In this document: positions 11,590 to 59,583 of the stretch, one piece after another
How the letters are laid out: every line of letters starts with the position of its first letter
Position numbering within the stretch: the stretch's first letter is position 1
From: a virus
Direction: 5' to 3' (one strand)
Virus record (IMG/VR): IMGVR_UViG_3300049432_000036
Coordinates: 1 to 59,583 of that record
Length of the DNA stretch: 59,583 nt
Notes under the pieces: model-generated
Databases searched by the model: none
The model's input: only the letters and a program-made list of their open reading frames with translations
Told to the model about the DNA's origin: nothing
Made by a program: the position numbers and the translations under genes

Positions 11590-11603
11590 TCCCTACGCGC
11601 GTA
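11590..11603. repeat. TCCCTACGCGCGTA motif copy 2 (intergenic)
   Basis: Same 14 bases as at 4051 and 57708. Here it runs into TAACAT, a possible -10 element also found after GCGCG at 35393, so it could lie in or over a promoter for the primase operon. Confidence 0.65.
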
Positions 11604-11642
11604 ACATAGCGCTCCTGACCCGATCCGTGATTGGGGGTGTTA

Positions 11643-22100: not shown

Positions 22101-22387
22101 AGAGCATGGCTGAGGTAACCGCCGAGATCAAGCGGCCGGACCTCTCGAAGAAGATGACCGTTGAGTGCTTCGACGACACGGATGTCTTGGTATATGTGAG
22201 GTTTGGCCGGTATGACTTCCCGCGCTTCGAGAAGGCGTTGTGGAATATGCGACTCAACCACGACGTGTTGATCGTGAAGGGCATGAAGCGGAAGGGCTTC
22301 GGTACCGGCATCCATGTCAAGGCGGCGTGGTGTATCGACCCGGATGACCTGTTAGAAGAGGAAGACGGCGAGGAGGATGAGTCATAG
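19193..22387 (+). CDS. dnaE: DNA polymerase III alpha subunit (DnaE-type)
   Basis: 1064 aa. PHP domain (residues 1 to about 280) with metal ligands in HHHS, TEHGN (Glu replaces the usual Asp) and ATADCHY. Palm: GPARGSAAAS near 372-381 and PDVDLDFDD near 414-422 hold the catalytic aspartates. Fingers: SVHAAGLVIS, IYQEQI, FNQSHCVSY. A helix-hairpin-helix (IPGVGYKMAEAI) near 842 binds duplex DNA. About 100 aa shorter than bacterial DnaE, with loss at the C-terminus, where clamp/tau contacts usually lie. C-family replicase; probably works with the phage primase-helicase and may borrow the host clamp. Confidence 0.96.
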   Translation: MEYVSLHHHSTYSYMDGFGPVKDHVERAAELEMNALALTEHGNVSSHVQLEKESNRLGIKPIFGLEAYCAPSNMKEQKNRRKWHLTLLAETDEGYRNLMRLVTKSWAEGFYQWPTVHGEWLREHSEGIIALSGCADSHLSCTLLGGKGRETGDEREALAVMRNYKRIFGDRYYVEVQMFPELERTRKLNPWFANAAAKLGVKIVATADCHYPLPDDNKMQTILHTAGRGLGTVDTAESQWEYNIRLCPPSSDRVVMDRLRATGLTRSQASQALHTTAEIASRCSVELPKMDMLKFPLPRGVKDKTELIWSWLREGWKFRWQTDAYLREHKKEAVERIKYEMEMIIMKDYVDYFLMLSDAVRWCKEKADPVAVGPARGSAAASLVCYILRITEINPLPFPNMLFERFIDINRTDLPDVDLDFDDENRWQLVEHLTDLYGADHVANIGTYTKYRGKNSLEDVARAHDIPVWEIQPVKDLMIERSGGDSRLDSSIEDTVDMFPAARAVFDKHPELEYALRLEGNMKASSVHAAGLVISNDPITENVAMYERKDKHGNSRRVVSVDKYDAEYLGMLKADFLGLTTMGMVARAIKQIGMPLNDLYHLPFTDEKVLEAFRENDVVGIFQFGGGATKIVNGDVKPDNFLELCDINALSRPGPLHSGSTSDYIDIKHGRKKAESFHPMIDEITKHTYSTIIYQEQILRIIKEMGGLPWTHVQEIRRIISLKRGVGAFQQRFEQFVEGAKEHGVDRTLADRIWKRLVTAGQYAFNQSHCVSYSALAYWQMYLKVYHPQAFYAACLVKFDKIQYKLMRDAMSHGLAIKPPGLNTAHVDWYSDGDVIRAGYKQIPGVGYKMAEAIIEERETNGPFENWEDLIRVKGIGEKTAPKYAHWAAHEDPFGIHRVDLVLERVRKAITSGRLMDQDMKGRMIPLPTPNFRGAEIPTDQGDVAVTYIGIPQKRNPQDVIEDERARTGKSMAEVTAEIKRPDLSKKMTVECFDDTDVLVYVRFGRYDFPRFEKALWNMRLNHDVLIVKGMKRKGFGTGIHVKAAWCIDPDDLLEEEDGEEDES

Positions 22388-22544
22388 CTTTCGATGGTGC
22401 CCGGCTTTCACTTGGGGCGCAAGGCGGCACTTGCATAAGTGTTGCATGACGGACCAACACAAGTTCCGTGGATTGATGATGCACTTCTGCGAGTGCGGGC
22501 ACGCATGGGAGGCGAAGATATGGGATGGATTATCTGGGGAGTAA
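22377..22544 (+). CDS. Small Cys/His protein
   Basis: 55 aa. RHLHKCC, then HFCECGHAW, gives a Cys/His array typical of small zinc-binding phage proteins. Starts inside the end of the polymerase gene. The ATG at 22446 is an alternative start but would lose half the metal site. Confidence 0.55.
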   Translation: MSHSFRWCPAFTWGARRHLHKCCMTDQHKFRGLMMHFCECGHAWEAKIWDGLSGE

Positions 22545-22792
22545 CCCTCTGGGGCTTTATATGCTTCGGACTTGGGATGCTGCTCGGCGCATACGTAACC
22601 AGAGAACATCGAGCGATGAGGAGTTACTGGGATGGCCCTTGGCAGCAATCGGGACAAGCAACCGACTCGGGTGGCGGAGATCCTGCTGAACGCGCAGGCT
22701 CTGGACGACCGGCGCCAGGTACAGATCAACCGGCAGATCCGGATCATCAACCGGCTCGTGGAGGAGAACACGGCCCTGCGGAACGGACTTGA
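22520..22792 (+). CDS. Small membrane protein overlapping the next gene
   Basis: 90 aa. One transmembrane helix at residues 2-27. The part after about residue 45 is Gly/Pro/Asp-rich and overlaps the next gene by 161 bases, so its C-terminus looks like low-constraint sequence; GGGAGG upstream supports the start. Confidence 0.5.
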   Translation: MGWIIWGVTLWGFICFGLGMLLGAYVTREHRAMRSYWDGPWQQSGQATDSGGGDPAERAGSGRPAPGTDQPADPDHQPARGGEHGPAERT

Positions 22793-22928
22793 GTCGATTC
22801 GCAACGACGAAGACCAGGAGATGACCGCCGTCGAAGCTGCGGTCGCCACCCTGGCTGGGGCAAACAACATCACCGAACGCTGGCACCGCGAAGACGCGGA
22901 GTGGGAAAAGGAGCAGGAGAAGAAATGA
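22632..22928 (+). CDS. Coiled-coil hypothetical protein
   Basis: 98 aa, mostly helical; VQINRQIRIINRLVEENTALRNG... fits a heptad coiled coil. GAGGAG upstream of ATG. The stop overlaps the MazG start (ATGA). Confidence 0.7.
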   Translation: MALGSNRDKQPTRVAEILLNAQALDDRRQVQINRQIRIINRLVEENTALRNGLESIRNDEDQEMTAVEAAVATLAGANNITERWHREDAEWEKEQEKK

Positions 22929-23614
22929 CCGAACCGAGCATCACCGGAATGGCAGCACAAGACGGCGGGACCGAACTGCTGAAGTACATGGGAACGGACG
23001 CGCAGCGTTGGGCTCAGGCGTTCATGAAGGTCGTGGCCGATCGGCCCGCGCCGGAGATCGATGAGGGCTTCATGATCGGCTGGTTCGCGAATGCGATCGA
23101 GACCGGCCGGTCCGCAGCCATGAGTAGTTCGGAGTACGTCACCAGCATCAACGAGTTCGCCCTCAAGGCCAACGAGACCGCCCACAAGAAGGGCTGGTGG
23201 AGCAACGCCAGGCAGTTCGACGGCGTACTGATGCTCATCGTCTCGGAAGCCAGTGAAGCCCTGGAGGAGTGGAGAAACAACCACAAGGAGGACGAAGGCT
23301 ACTGGAGCCTGCCGAAGTACCGGCCAGCGATCGAAGCCCTCCCTGAGGGACTGCGTGAGACCGCAGCCACGATCGAAGAGATGCCTGATGATGGAATCGA
23401 CATCGTGGATGAGAACTTCAATCAGGACGAGATCCAGGCTCTCGCCATGGAGGGCTTCCTGAAGCCTGAGGGTATCCCGTCCGAGCTGGCTGACATCGTG
23501 ATCCGCGTCATGGATTGCGCGGTGGAGTACGGCATCGACCTCGAAGACGAGATCACCCTCAAGATGGCCTACAACGCCACCCGGCCGCACAAGCACGGAG
23601 GCAAGCGCTCGTGA
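22925..23614 (+). CDS. MazG-like NTP pyrophosphohydrolase
   Basis: 229 aa. SEASEALEEWR near residue 102-112 and ELADIVIRVMD near 187-197 give the ExxE...ExxD metal-binding helices of all-alpha NTP pyrophosphatases (MazG/dUTPase-2 type). There is an insert of about 70 residues between the two motifs. Likely cleaves (d)NTPs or lowers ppGpp, keeping nucleotide pools suitable for phage DNA synthesis. ATG at 22925 follows AGGAGAAGAA. Confidence 0.8.
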   Translation: MTEPSITGMAAQDGGTELLKYMGTDAQRWAQAFMKVVADRPAPEIDEGFMIGWFANAIETGRSAAMSSSEYVTSINEFALKANETAHKKGWWSNARQFDGVLMLIVSEASEALEEWRNNHKEDEGYWSLPKYRPAIEALPEGLRETAATIEEMPDDGIDIVDENFNQDEIQALAMEGFLKPEGIPSELADIVIRVMDCAVEYGIDLEDEITLKMAYNATRPHKHGGKRS

Positions 23615-56798: not shown

Positions 56799-56837
56799 GC
56801 GGCACCCAGCGGTTTCCTTCCTGACGCTGGGTGCCGC
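56799..56837 (+). terminator. Rho-independent terminator-like hairpin
   Basis: Perfect 13-base stem GCGGCACCCAGCG / CGCTGGGTGCCGC with a 13-base loop; ends the lysis module. No long T run after it. Confidence 0.82.
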
Positions 56838-56905: not shown

Positions 56906-57160
56906 ATGGCAAACGTCATCGACCGCATCCGGCTGACGCTGGACCCGCAGTCGGCCGCAAACGCCTTGTACGATGTGCTTTTGCAGTGGAAGAGGGCCGA
57001 CGACGAGTTGAGCGACATCCACACGCGTCGTAACCAGCGCCGCCGGGAGCTGTTCGCCCGCAGAGAAGCGTACGAGCGCGTTCTCGCAGCATTCATGGGG
57101 GTTACTCCCCAGAGCGTCCGACCGTTGCTGCGAGATCACTTCACGGAGCCGACCTCGTGA
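56906..57160 (+). CDS. Small helical hypothetical protein
   Basis: 84 aa, highly helical and basic (RRNQRRRELFARREAYERVL). AGGAGG 4 bases before ATG 56906 (ATG 56903 is an alternative). No recognised family. The stop overlaps the next GTG. Confidence 0.7.
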   Translation: MANVIDRIRLTLDPQSAANALYDVLLQWKRADDELSDIHTRRNQRRRELFARREAYERVLAAFMGVTPQSVRPLLRDHFTEPTS

Positions 57161-57588
57161 CCGCCGAAGAAGACCTCAAGCTGCTGCTACAACTCGGCAC
57201 CGTCGACAACATCACGACAACGGCCCTGACCGACGCCGACCACATCGCCGGAGGCATCCCGAGATGGGCGGAGATCGTGGTGGATGTCGAGCGCGAAGGG
57301 AAGCTGCTGCGGCACTACTTCACGCGCCACGACGGCGAAGCGCTCGTGATGTCGGTACTCCGAGGGATGCACCCCCAGGCCGGTCGGCCGGTCGTCGGCT
57401 TCCTCTGGGAGAGGCTGGACGACTGCATGGTTGGCATCCTGGACGGCGAGATCGAGCCGGATGAGAAGCTTCGGTTCAAGGGCGAAGCGCTGGGACTCGC
57501 GTTCGCTATCGCGACCATCCGGCGACCACACGACCCGGACGTGGACGCTGTGCGCAAAGAGGCACGAGAGCGGTACGACGCGCGCTGA
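57157..57588 (+). CDS. Hypothetical protein
   Basis: 143 aa from GTG overlapping the previous stop (GTGA). Alpha/beta pattern, acidic; contains DDCMVGILDGEIEP. No recognised family. Last gene before the gene-free structured region. Confidence 0.7.
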   Translation: MTAEEDLKLLLQLGTVDNITTTALTDADHIAGGIPRWAEIVVDVEREGKLLRHYFTRHDGEALVMSVLRGMHPQAGRPVVGFLWERLDDCMVGILDGEIEPDEKLRFKGEALGLAFAIATIRRPHDPDVDAVRKEARERYDAR

Positions 57589-57593
57589 CGCGT

Positions 57594-57611
57594 CAGTTAC
57601 TTGCAGTTACT
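57594..57611 (+). promoter_or_regulatory. Tandem CAGTTACT repeat
   Basis: Two exact copies of CAGTTACT (57594-57601 and 57604-57611) with starts 10 bases apart, i.e. one helical turn, right at the start of the structured region. Operator-like. CATAAG (57629-57634) downstream of TTACTG (57607-57612) at 16 bases may be a promoter. Confidence 0.45.
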
Positions 57612-57707
57612 GGCTACGGAGACTCACACATAAGCTGCATAACTCTCCGTAGTCGAAGGTAACGATCGTATTACGAGATCGCCCCGAGGGTGGTTTCGGC
57701 TTTGCGC

Positions 57708-57721
57708 TCCCTACGCGCGTA
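57708..57721. repeat. TCCCTACGCGCGTA motif copy 3 (in perfect palindrome)
   Basis: Third exact copy of the 14-base motif; here it is part of the perfect 16-base palindrome CCCTACGCGCGTAGGG (57709-57724). As RNA it would also form a stable hairpin. Confidence 0.65.
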
Positions 57722-58198
57722 GGGTTAAGTCACTGTCACGGCCCCCGCTGTGGGGCTGCCTCGCTGAGAGAGCGGGCGCGCAACCTACGAGAGATACGGA
57801 CCGGCTAGTTGAGGTTCGGTAGCTCGCAGGGGATGGATCGAGAGATGGTGTCGGTCCGTAGCCCATACTCATCGGCCGGGAATCCGGGAAACTGGAATCG
57901 GCGGAGCCTGCCCTTAGGGAGAGGCTGAGCGGAGCGGAGAGGCACTAGCCCTCGTTGAGGCTCTAATCGGCACGCTACAAGGGAGAGACCGAAGTTGGTC
58001 TAAAGGACGGGTTGTAACACGAACCCCTTACCTGCCATCCACATCTACGGAACCGACTCTCATGGAGTTCGGCGCGGCCTAGGAAGCTACGAAATGACTT
58101 GCAGCCTGGCGGTTGTATCGCCCTCGAAGTCATGGAGAACTGAATAACGTCAACGAAACAAAGCAAGTTGGACGAATCGAAGCGGAGTTGATTCGTCC

Positions 58199-58268
58199 GG
58201 CCCCGTCGTACAAGCAGTAGCGCCAGGGGATGACCTTGGAGATGTCGGTATCGAATCCGACCGGGGCA
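58199..58268 (+). other. tRNA-like fold with noncanonical loops
   Basis: Acceptor-like stem GCCCCG (58200-58205) / CGGGGC (58262-58267); T-arm-like GTCGG / CCGAC (58244-58248/58257-58261) joined directly to it with an 8-base loop TATCGAAT; anticodon-like stem CCAGG/CTTGG (58223-58227/58235-58239) with 7-base loop but G where U33 should be; weak D arm; no CCA. Probably a degenerate tRNA or tRNA mimic. GGTATC/GATACC (58247-58252/58273-58278) offers a competing fold near the next ribosome site. Confidence 0.4.
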
Positions 58269-58297
58269 CGCAGATACCAACCGATAGGAGCTGCAAA

Positions 58298-58738
58298 ATG
58301 AAGATCAAGTTCATTGCCGAGTACACCGATGGCGTCTACACCTTCCTGGCGCTTGAGACCGGAGACCACCCGACTGGCTACTGTTCGGAGCAGGGTTGCA
58401 TGAACACCCCGAACAGCACCCTGTATGACGTTGAGGGCGACCCGATGTTGTTCTGCGCATACCACATCCAACGTCTCGACCAGGATGACGAGATGGGATG
58501 GAAGCGCGGCCGGACGATTTACCCGGTTGATGCCGATGGAGTCGAGGAGTGCTCGACCCCGGCGCAGATCGTCGCCGAATGGATCATCAACAACCCCGAG
58601 ATGTTCGTCGAGGTTGTGCCGATCCCGTTCAAGGAGATCGTTGCGGAAGACGAGAAGCGCGAGGGCATGCGCGACTGTAAGGGACGCGGGCCGGATCACC
58701 CGCAGTTCGACCCGGAGCAAGCCTACAACTTCAGCTAG
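58298..58738 (+). CDS. Zinc-finger-like hypothetical protein
   Basis: 146 aa. GYCSEQGC near residue 28-34 and MLFCAYH near 50-56 give a C-x4-C...C-x2-H treble-clef-like pattern. The rest is acidic. TAGGAG upstream of ATG; a hairpin in the leader may control it. Single-gene unit with terminator at 58745. Confidence 0.75.
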   Translation: MKIKFIAEYTDGVYTFLALETGDHPTGYCSEQGCMNTPNSTLYDVEGDPMLFCAYHIQRLDQDDEMGWKRGRTIYPVDADGVEECSTPAQIVAEWIINNPEMFVEVVPIPFKEIVAEDEKREGMRDCKGRGPDHPQFDPEQAYNFS

Positions 58739-58816: not shown

Positions 58817-59509
58817 ATGGCAAACACGACTGCGCGGACTCGCAAGGCCGTCGCCGCAACGAAGACCGCTACTGCGAACATCACCGCCGCACGGAAGGCC
58901 GTAGCGAAGAAGACTGCGGCAGCGCCGGTCGGCGACAAGCCGAAGAAGGAGCAGACCTTCGAGGAGCGCGACTGGACATACTTGGACGACAAGCCACCCA
59001 GCGAGCAGCACGAGATCCTGGCCAAGGAGATCAACCGCCGGACGAACCTGGTGGATGACGACGGCGAGGACACGCCGATCAGCCCGAAGCAGGTCCAGGC
59101 CGTTCTCGCGATGTTCCCGCACTTCCAGCGGTCGGCGACGAACAAGGCCCGCGCCGGTTACCACCCGCTTGCCGCAGAGATCGTGGAGAAGCGTTCGGAG
59201 CACATGACCCTGGCGCACAAGGAAGCACGGGAGATCATGGACGGACTGGCCCAGGAAGTGGCCAAGAAGGCTCCGGCCAAGAAGACCGCAACCCCGAAGG
59301 CCAACCCGGCCGGAGCGGCCAAGGCTGTGGCCAAGCGGGCCGCGAGCCCGAAGCTCAACACCGAGACCCGGCCGTCAACTCCGGCCAATCCCGCGCCGAC
59401 CGCCCCGCTTCCCCACAACGGCAAGGCTCCGGCTCGCAAGGCGCGGGTCACCAAGAAGACCGCCGCGCCGGTCCCCGCGTCCCTGGCTAGCTCCAACGAA
59501 GCGTTCTGA
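58817..59509 (+). CDS. Histone-like Lys/Ala-rich protein B
   Basis: 230 aa. Lys/Ala/Thr-rich N-terminal tail (1-35) and a longer C-terminal tail (about 155-215) with AKKAPAKKT, as in histone H1-like proteins. The core (about 45-150) contains SPKQ....V......FQ.S..NK, matching protein A (7748) at P, Q, V, F, Q, S, N and K with the same spacing; both end in EAF. Likely a diverged paralogue, perhaps with a different DNA-binding or packing role. AGGAAGG upstream. Leads across the circular junction to the gene at 65. Confidence 0.85.
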   Translation: MANTTARTRKAVAATKTATANITAARKAVAKKTAAAPVGDKPKKEQTFEERDWTYLDDKPPSEQHEILAKEINRRTNLVDDDGEDTPISPKQVQAVLAMFPHFQRSATNKARAGYHPLAAEIVEKRSEHMTLAHKEAREIMDGLAQEVAKKAPAKKTATPKANPAGAAKAVAKRAASPKLNTETRPSTPANPAPTAPLPHNGKAPARKARVTKKTAAPVPASLASSNEAF

Positions 59510-59583
59510 GAGGAACTGAAATGCGATTCATCACCAAGGCGAAGTACGCACTCATGATCGTGGCCGTAACGGCCAGCATGGGT
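59457..59583. repeat. Right copy of 127-bp terminal direct repeat
   Basis: Identical to 1-127. It ends inside the secreted-protein gene, whose start codon at 59521 is the same gene as at 65. Unique sequence therefore ends at 59456. Confidence 0.95.

Follow-up and report, generated by a model that had tools for sequence, protein, structure and literature searches.

Conserved base pairing in a gene-free stretch of four metagenomic phages points to a large non-coding RNA with a tRNA-like 3′ end

Near one end of a phage contig from IMG/VR, a stretch without an evident gene (57589-58297) holds many potential stems, which raises the question of whether it specifies an RNA and, if so, of what kind. 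The contig, analysed over its full 59.6 kb (hereafter the window), looks complete: 127 bp are identical at its two ends (1-127 and 59457-59583), as in a complete genome assembled as a circle, and the contig ends of its relatives are identical over 123-141 bp. Its evident genes all lie on the plus strand and include those for terminase, portal, capsid, tape measure, endolysin, an SNF2-type helicase, an exonuclease, a Sak4-like annealing protein, primase, a DnaE-type polymerase, and ThyX. Cultured phages with related capsid proteins infect Micrococcus, Microbacterium, Arthrobacter, Gordonia, and Mycobacterium (42-47% identity among the best matches). Read as a circle, the genome runs from lysis genes through the non-coding stretch, which follows a gene at 57157-57588, to early genes, the next gene starting at 58298. 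Further upstream, an 11-bp hairpin at 56800-56834 (GGCACCCAGCG/CGCTGGGTGCC), directly 3′ of a holin-like gene and also present in the relative G007, is probably the terminator of the lysis genes.

The lack of a credible open reading frame (ORF), asserted in a preliminary description of this DNA, was borne out, the longest ORF in the interval comprising 101 aa (minus strand, 57975-58280) and having no counterpart in relatives. Homologous non-coding stretches occupy the same locus, with the same neighbors, in three IMG/VR contigs, G003 (61 kb), G004 (60 kb), and G007 (17 kb). A conserved protein in such homologues had been named as evidence against an RNA; it was looked for, and the stretches of the window and these three relatives share no ORF. 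Small tblastn matches fall within several frames of the same patches and therefore reflect DNA identity rather than coding. The gene before the stretch is conserved among the relatives (55-68% protein identity). The genes after it vary: ahead of a lysine-rich protein gene that all four phages carry, the window has one gene, G003 and G007 have two small ones, and G004 has none; because the downstream genes differ between phages, the RNA is not tied to one mRNA. In G005, a more distant relative that also carries a homologue of the flanking gene, ordinary coding DNA comes next and the stretch is absent. A search for a sigma-70-like promoter found none.

The perfect stems reported earlier are present at their listed pairings (57614-57622/57644-57652, 57795-57803/57852-57860, 58170-58178/58190-58198, and the palindrome at 57709-57724). 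By themselves, such stems could be due to chance, the DNA being GC-rich, and folding energy alone is weak evidence, the region not standing clearly above chance. The fold-energy z-score of 57585-58300 (716 nt) is -2.36 on the plus strand and -0.78 on the minus strand, that of 57709-58270 is -0.90, ten other segments of the same genome averaging -0.98, and single-sequence folds of G003 and G004 are better on the minus strand than on the plus strand. It is conservation and compensatory change in the relatives that set the region above chance.

That covariation, the absence of which had also been named as a ground for rejection, was counted across the four sequences in 11 hand-chosen hairpins or helices comprising 59 base pairs. 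All 11 occur in the same order in the four phages, and 235 of the 236 cells pair, a choice of helices by hand being one that favors good pairing (as also for PB, PC, PD, P6′, H8, and P5x); 33 of the 59 pairs show double-sided changes in at least one phage, and pairing falls to 72% when arms are swapped between phages. The non-Watson-Crick cells consist of 11 G-U and one C-T, with no A-C, which points to an RNA read from the plus strand. Because the helices were hand-chosen, tests less dependent on that choice were added. With an unfitted MAFFT alignment compared with column shuffles, alifold gave z-scores of -7.7 (3′ end), -4.4, -3.3, and -3.0 in four segments; for the 5′ end and the variable domain it did no better than the shuffles, and the minus strand scored better in some of the segments examined. 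The lack of signal in those two parts is partly because MAFFT misplaces hairpins there.

Two covariance models, each trained on G007 and G004 only, were then matched to the remaining sequences, with E-values that are rough. Model R1, made up of helix P10 and the tRNA-like module, matched G003 (E=1e-15) and the window at 58165-58270 (E=1e-5). In the corresponding alignment (A6), which was fitted to the structure, 108/108 cells pair and 17 of 29 pairs carry double changes, a result reached by 0/500 shuffles; sliding the partners by one column lowers pairing to 41-50%. Model R2, for the central domain, matched the window at 57863-57987 (62 bits, E=4e-18) and G003 (55 bits). Pairing is also seen in 4/4 phages for PA (57774-57777/57861-57864), a long-range helix that was left out because it overlaps P3 in three of them. 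Taken together, the region very probably encodes a conserved structured RNA, and compensatory change in four phages gives strong support to the preliminary proposal that this is a large, structured phage RNA whose 3′ part is tRNA-like.

The predicted RNA would span about 545-675 nt on the plus strand, from about 57596 or 57725 to 58270, with about 15 conserved helices (Table 1). Its 5′ end is uncertain: including hairpin P0 would give a length of about 675 nt, and excluding it one of about 545-560 nt.

Table 1. Elements of the predicted RNA and its 5′ flank, in window coordinates
Feature	Position	Strand	Form	Support
P0 hairpin	about 57596-57664	+	outer stem GTTAC(C)/(G)GTAAC; inner stem CTACGGAGA/TCTCCGTAG; loop TCACACATA	loop invariant
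P1 palindrome	57709-57724		CCCTACGCGCGTAGGG, 16 bp	invariant, 4/4
P2 hairpin	57740-57757	+	6 bp; loop CGCUG(A/U)	24/24 cells; double changes in 5 pairs
P3 hairpin	57760-57776	+	several G-U	19/20 cells; 0 double changes
P4 hairpin	57798-57817	+		20/20 cells; double changes in 5/5 pairs
P5 (57883-57896) with short extension P5x	57875-57902	+	GNAA tetraloop	P5 20/20 cells, nearly invariant
Composite long arm P6′-PB-PC-PD	57911-57983	+		model R2 match
P7 hairpin	57986-58001	+	followed by (A)AAGGA	20/20 cells; 4 double changes
P8 hairpin	58010-58025	+		16/16 cells; 4 double changes
Variable domain	58026-58107	+	shorter and different in the window relative to G004 and G007	alignment A1
H8 hairpin	58108-58122	+	GGNNGU-NNN-AUNNCC	paired in window, G004, G007
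P10	58170-58198	+	9-bp stem; conserved loop GNAGCGGAGUU	36/36 cells; 5 double changes; model R1
tRNA-like module	58200-58270	+		100% of cells paired; double changes in each helix; R1 match; alifold z -7.7

P0, read by eye from alignment A1 and the four folds and lying outside the 11-helix count, has an outer stem that changes from GTTACC/GGTAAC to GTAACC/GGTTAC in G007; it probably forms the 5′ end of the RNA, the alternative being a regulatory dyad in the DNA. The tandem repeat that had been likened to an operator does exist (CAGTTACTTG/CAGTTACTGG, 57594-57613), but labeling it an operator only is doubtful, because it is partly one arm of this hairpin, which is conserved in 4/4 phages. P1 is more likely a DNA operator, since it does not change and has counterparts of similar sequence elsewhere in these genomes, though it could form an RNA hairpin. 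The sequence YCCTACGCGCGTARGR lies between genes at 57709-57724 and 11591-11606 in the window and at 1890 and 20308 in G005, where it is part of a 26-bp perfect palindrome; it is likely a regulator site.

Within the body, P4 is flanked by conserved GAGRTACG and GGTAGC, and in the window it competes with the 9-bp pairing 57795-57803/57852-57860. P5x pairs in the three relatives and, by eye, as GCCGG/UCGGC in the window, the P5/P5x region being among the parts found by model R2. PB, PC, and PD are fully paired in 4/4 phages with differing sequences, while P6′ pairs in three phages with changed letters and shows a register shift in G007. H8 was not found in G003.

The 3′ module combines a 6-bp acceptor stem (58200-58205/58262-58267) stacked on a 5-bp T-stem, within a T-arm at 58244-58261, with a T-loop that is canonical in the relatives (UUCRAGU) and carries an additional A in the window. 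One long arm replaces the D- and anticodon arms, its loop reading CGGUAA in the relatives, and the module ends in an invariant ACG. Directly past this ACG, G003, G004, and G007 have a strong hairpin resembling a transcript end. The tRNA-like fold noted earlier at the 3′ end is present (58200-58267) but is not a tRNA gene: ARAGORN found no tRNA or tmRNA in the whole 59.6 kb, there is no D-arm, and a single arm between acceptor and T-arm takes the place of a recognised cloverleaf with D- and anticodon arms. tRNA-like 3′ ends are known from the mascRNA of MALAT1, bacterial YrlA, and the tRNA domain of tmRNA. Like these, the phage module terminates a longer RNA, stacks its acceptor on a T-arm, and includes one long arm; it differs from them in its 6-bp acceptor, in the lack of a D-arm or D-loop, in the ACG that follows, and in the absence of a tmRNA match or tag.

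What, then, does the RNA do? The overall explanation that we favor, and consider likely from the sequence comparisons, is a free-standing plus-strand non-coding RNA with a tRNA-like 3′ end, whose body would serve as a structural RNA in trans. That it acts as an RNA in its own right rather than as a leader is itself quite probable. The strongest competitor is a long structured 5′ leader exerting cis control, riboswitch-like or by antitermination, over the following early operon. Early genes of the same orientation do follow the stretch, and the window's next gene begins 28 nt past the RNA, with no clear terminator between them and with its ribosome site within a weak hairpin. However, the first downstream gene is not the same between phages, the three relatives have the strong hairpin directly past the RNA, and the tRNA-like 3′ end suits a finished RNA better; we regard a leader as rather improbable.

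An origin of replication, or an RNA-primed origin in which dyads, upstream repeats, and an RNA would prime or time replication, is somewhat less probable still. There is precedent in parABS mycobacteriophages, whose origin is RNA-based and includes a region of about 400-500 bp for a non-coding RNA (Wetzel et al., 2020, PMC7157519), likewise an actinobacteriophage non-coding RNA of a few hundred nt. The invariant palindrome would fit, as would repeats ending in TATCGGACG or TAGCGGACG, present in G003 and G007 within about 90 nt of additional DNA 5′ of the RNA and absent from the window. Against this, Pfam and PHROGs yielded no match to ParA, ParB, integrase, or repressor in the subset of ORFs scanned, where no parABS system appeared, and the phage encodes its own replication genes (DnaE-type polymerase, primase, and helicase). 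Moreover, the conserved RNA-type pairing with G-U and the T-loop are features that an origin does not need, and no tRNA-like part appears in the text of the paper on those origins (PMC7157519).

The free-standing RNA that we favor invites comparison with the large ornate RNAs of phages, which are long non-coding regions with many covariation-supported helices, as is the present one; abundant expression is also expected of this kind of RNA. GOLLD, one of these, forms a 14-mer nanocage. Both GOLLD and ROOL are phage RNAs of unknown function that often lie near tRNAs and were recently shown to form RNA-only cages, and it is not settled whether large natural RNAs commonly do so (PMC12286853). The present RNA is like GOLLD in being phage-encoded and hundreds of nt long, with a better conserved 3′ part, a variable region, and a link to tRNA (PMC12286853), but it is shorter, lacks an Rfam match, and has a D-arm-less tRNA-like module of its own. 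ROOL, of about 660 nt, is likewise phage-encoded and often found near tRNA islands (PMC12286853), a frequent rather than universal feature; the new RNA has no Rfam match to it, and ARAGORN found no tRNA in the 59.6 kb of the window.

It had been suggested that the RNA is either a member of these families or a new class. An Rfam covariance search that included GOLLD, ROOL, and tmRNA matched no family in the window or its relatives, the only entries listed being weak, below-threshold ones (snoTBR5 and Scr3202), and neither Rfam nor ARAGORN returned a tmRNA with a tag ORF. Membership is thus not upheld, while the proposal of a new class survives. A diverged GOLLD, ROOL, or other known large RNA missed by the models, to which the similar size, phage location, and tRNA-like neighbor might point (PMC12286853), is very unlikely in view of the absence of GOLLD and ROOL matches up to E=10 in the window and E=5 in the relatives. 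A degraded tRNA gene beside a non-functional spacer with chance stems would agree with the ordinary fold energy of the window and the lack of an ARAGORN tRNA, but unless the alignments are wrong its chances are negligible, being already refuted by compensatory changes over the whole body in four phages, beyond the tRNA-like end. As far as sequence can tell, this is almost certainly an undescribed large phage RNA, known so far from four metagenomic phages, and appears to be a new class within a known kind, the large ornate phage RNAs.

As for mechanism, the RNA would be transcribed together with the following early genes; its fold, a compact body of local hairpins and one long composite arm, is shown by the covariation in four phages. 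Host RNase P, RNase Z, the CCA enzyme, or EF-Tu might possibly read the acceptor/T-arm module, so that the 3′ end would be set or protected, an outcome suggested by the anatomy. More speculatively, the body could serve host take-over or particle production as a trans-acting structural RNA or scaffold, working singly or as an oligomer whose copies are joined through loop-loop contacts. One candidate contact, within or between molecules, would join CGCU in the loop of P2 to AGCG in that of P10; since both motifs are invariant, this pairing is without covariation support. The fullest version, of which we are doubtful, is a third large ornate class with no sequence relationship to GOLLD or ROOL, whose molecules would self-assemble through contacts between loops and bear at the 3′ end a minimal tRNA mimic of their own, lacking a D-arm and matured or charged by host tRNA enzymes. 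An independent class with a built-in tRNA mimic in actinophage-like genomes would offer a new test case for the roles of large phage RNAs, and the mimic itself one for how little of a tRNA suffices for host processing.

Further members were sought in several ways. No DNA match to the stretch was found in cultured phages or plasmids; IMG/VR scans with the neighbor gene returned only G003, G004, and G007 again, and scans of genome contigs with the neighbor gene and the major capsid protein returned nothing. In IMG/VR, the pattern CGGTATCGAATCCGACC occurred in another 21 contigs, all lacking the RNA around it and most resembling coding DNA, and CCGGGVAACYGGN{1,4}GGCGRAGCC in six extra contigs, always in apparent coding sequence; the palindrome pattern added one contig (L052), with an isolated intergenic site and no RNA. 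Run on genome parts of the related cultured phages Kurnik, Wollypog, LittleFella, and RikSengupta, model R1 gave nothing better than E=0.5. Model R2 matched Krampus on the minus strand and LittleFella within a CDS, but weakly (15-17 bits), and these matches were taken as chance. The Arthrobacter phage Wollypog (MW055913), while giving no R1 match there, has a 1.29-kb stretch without annotated genes (22267-23557; L086 8268-9558) at the equivalent place, between the genes for endolysin and an alanine/arginine-rich protein.
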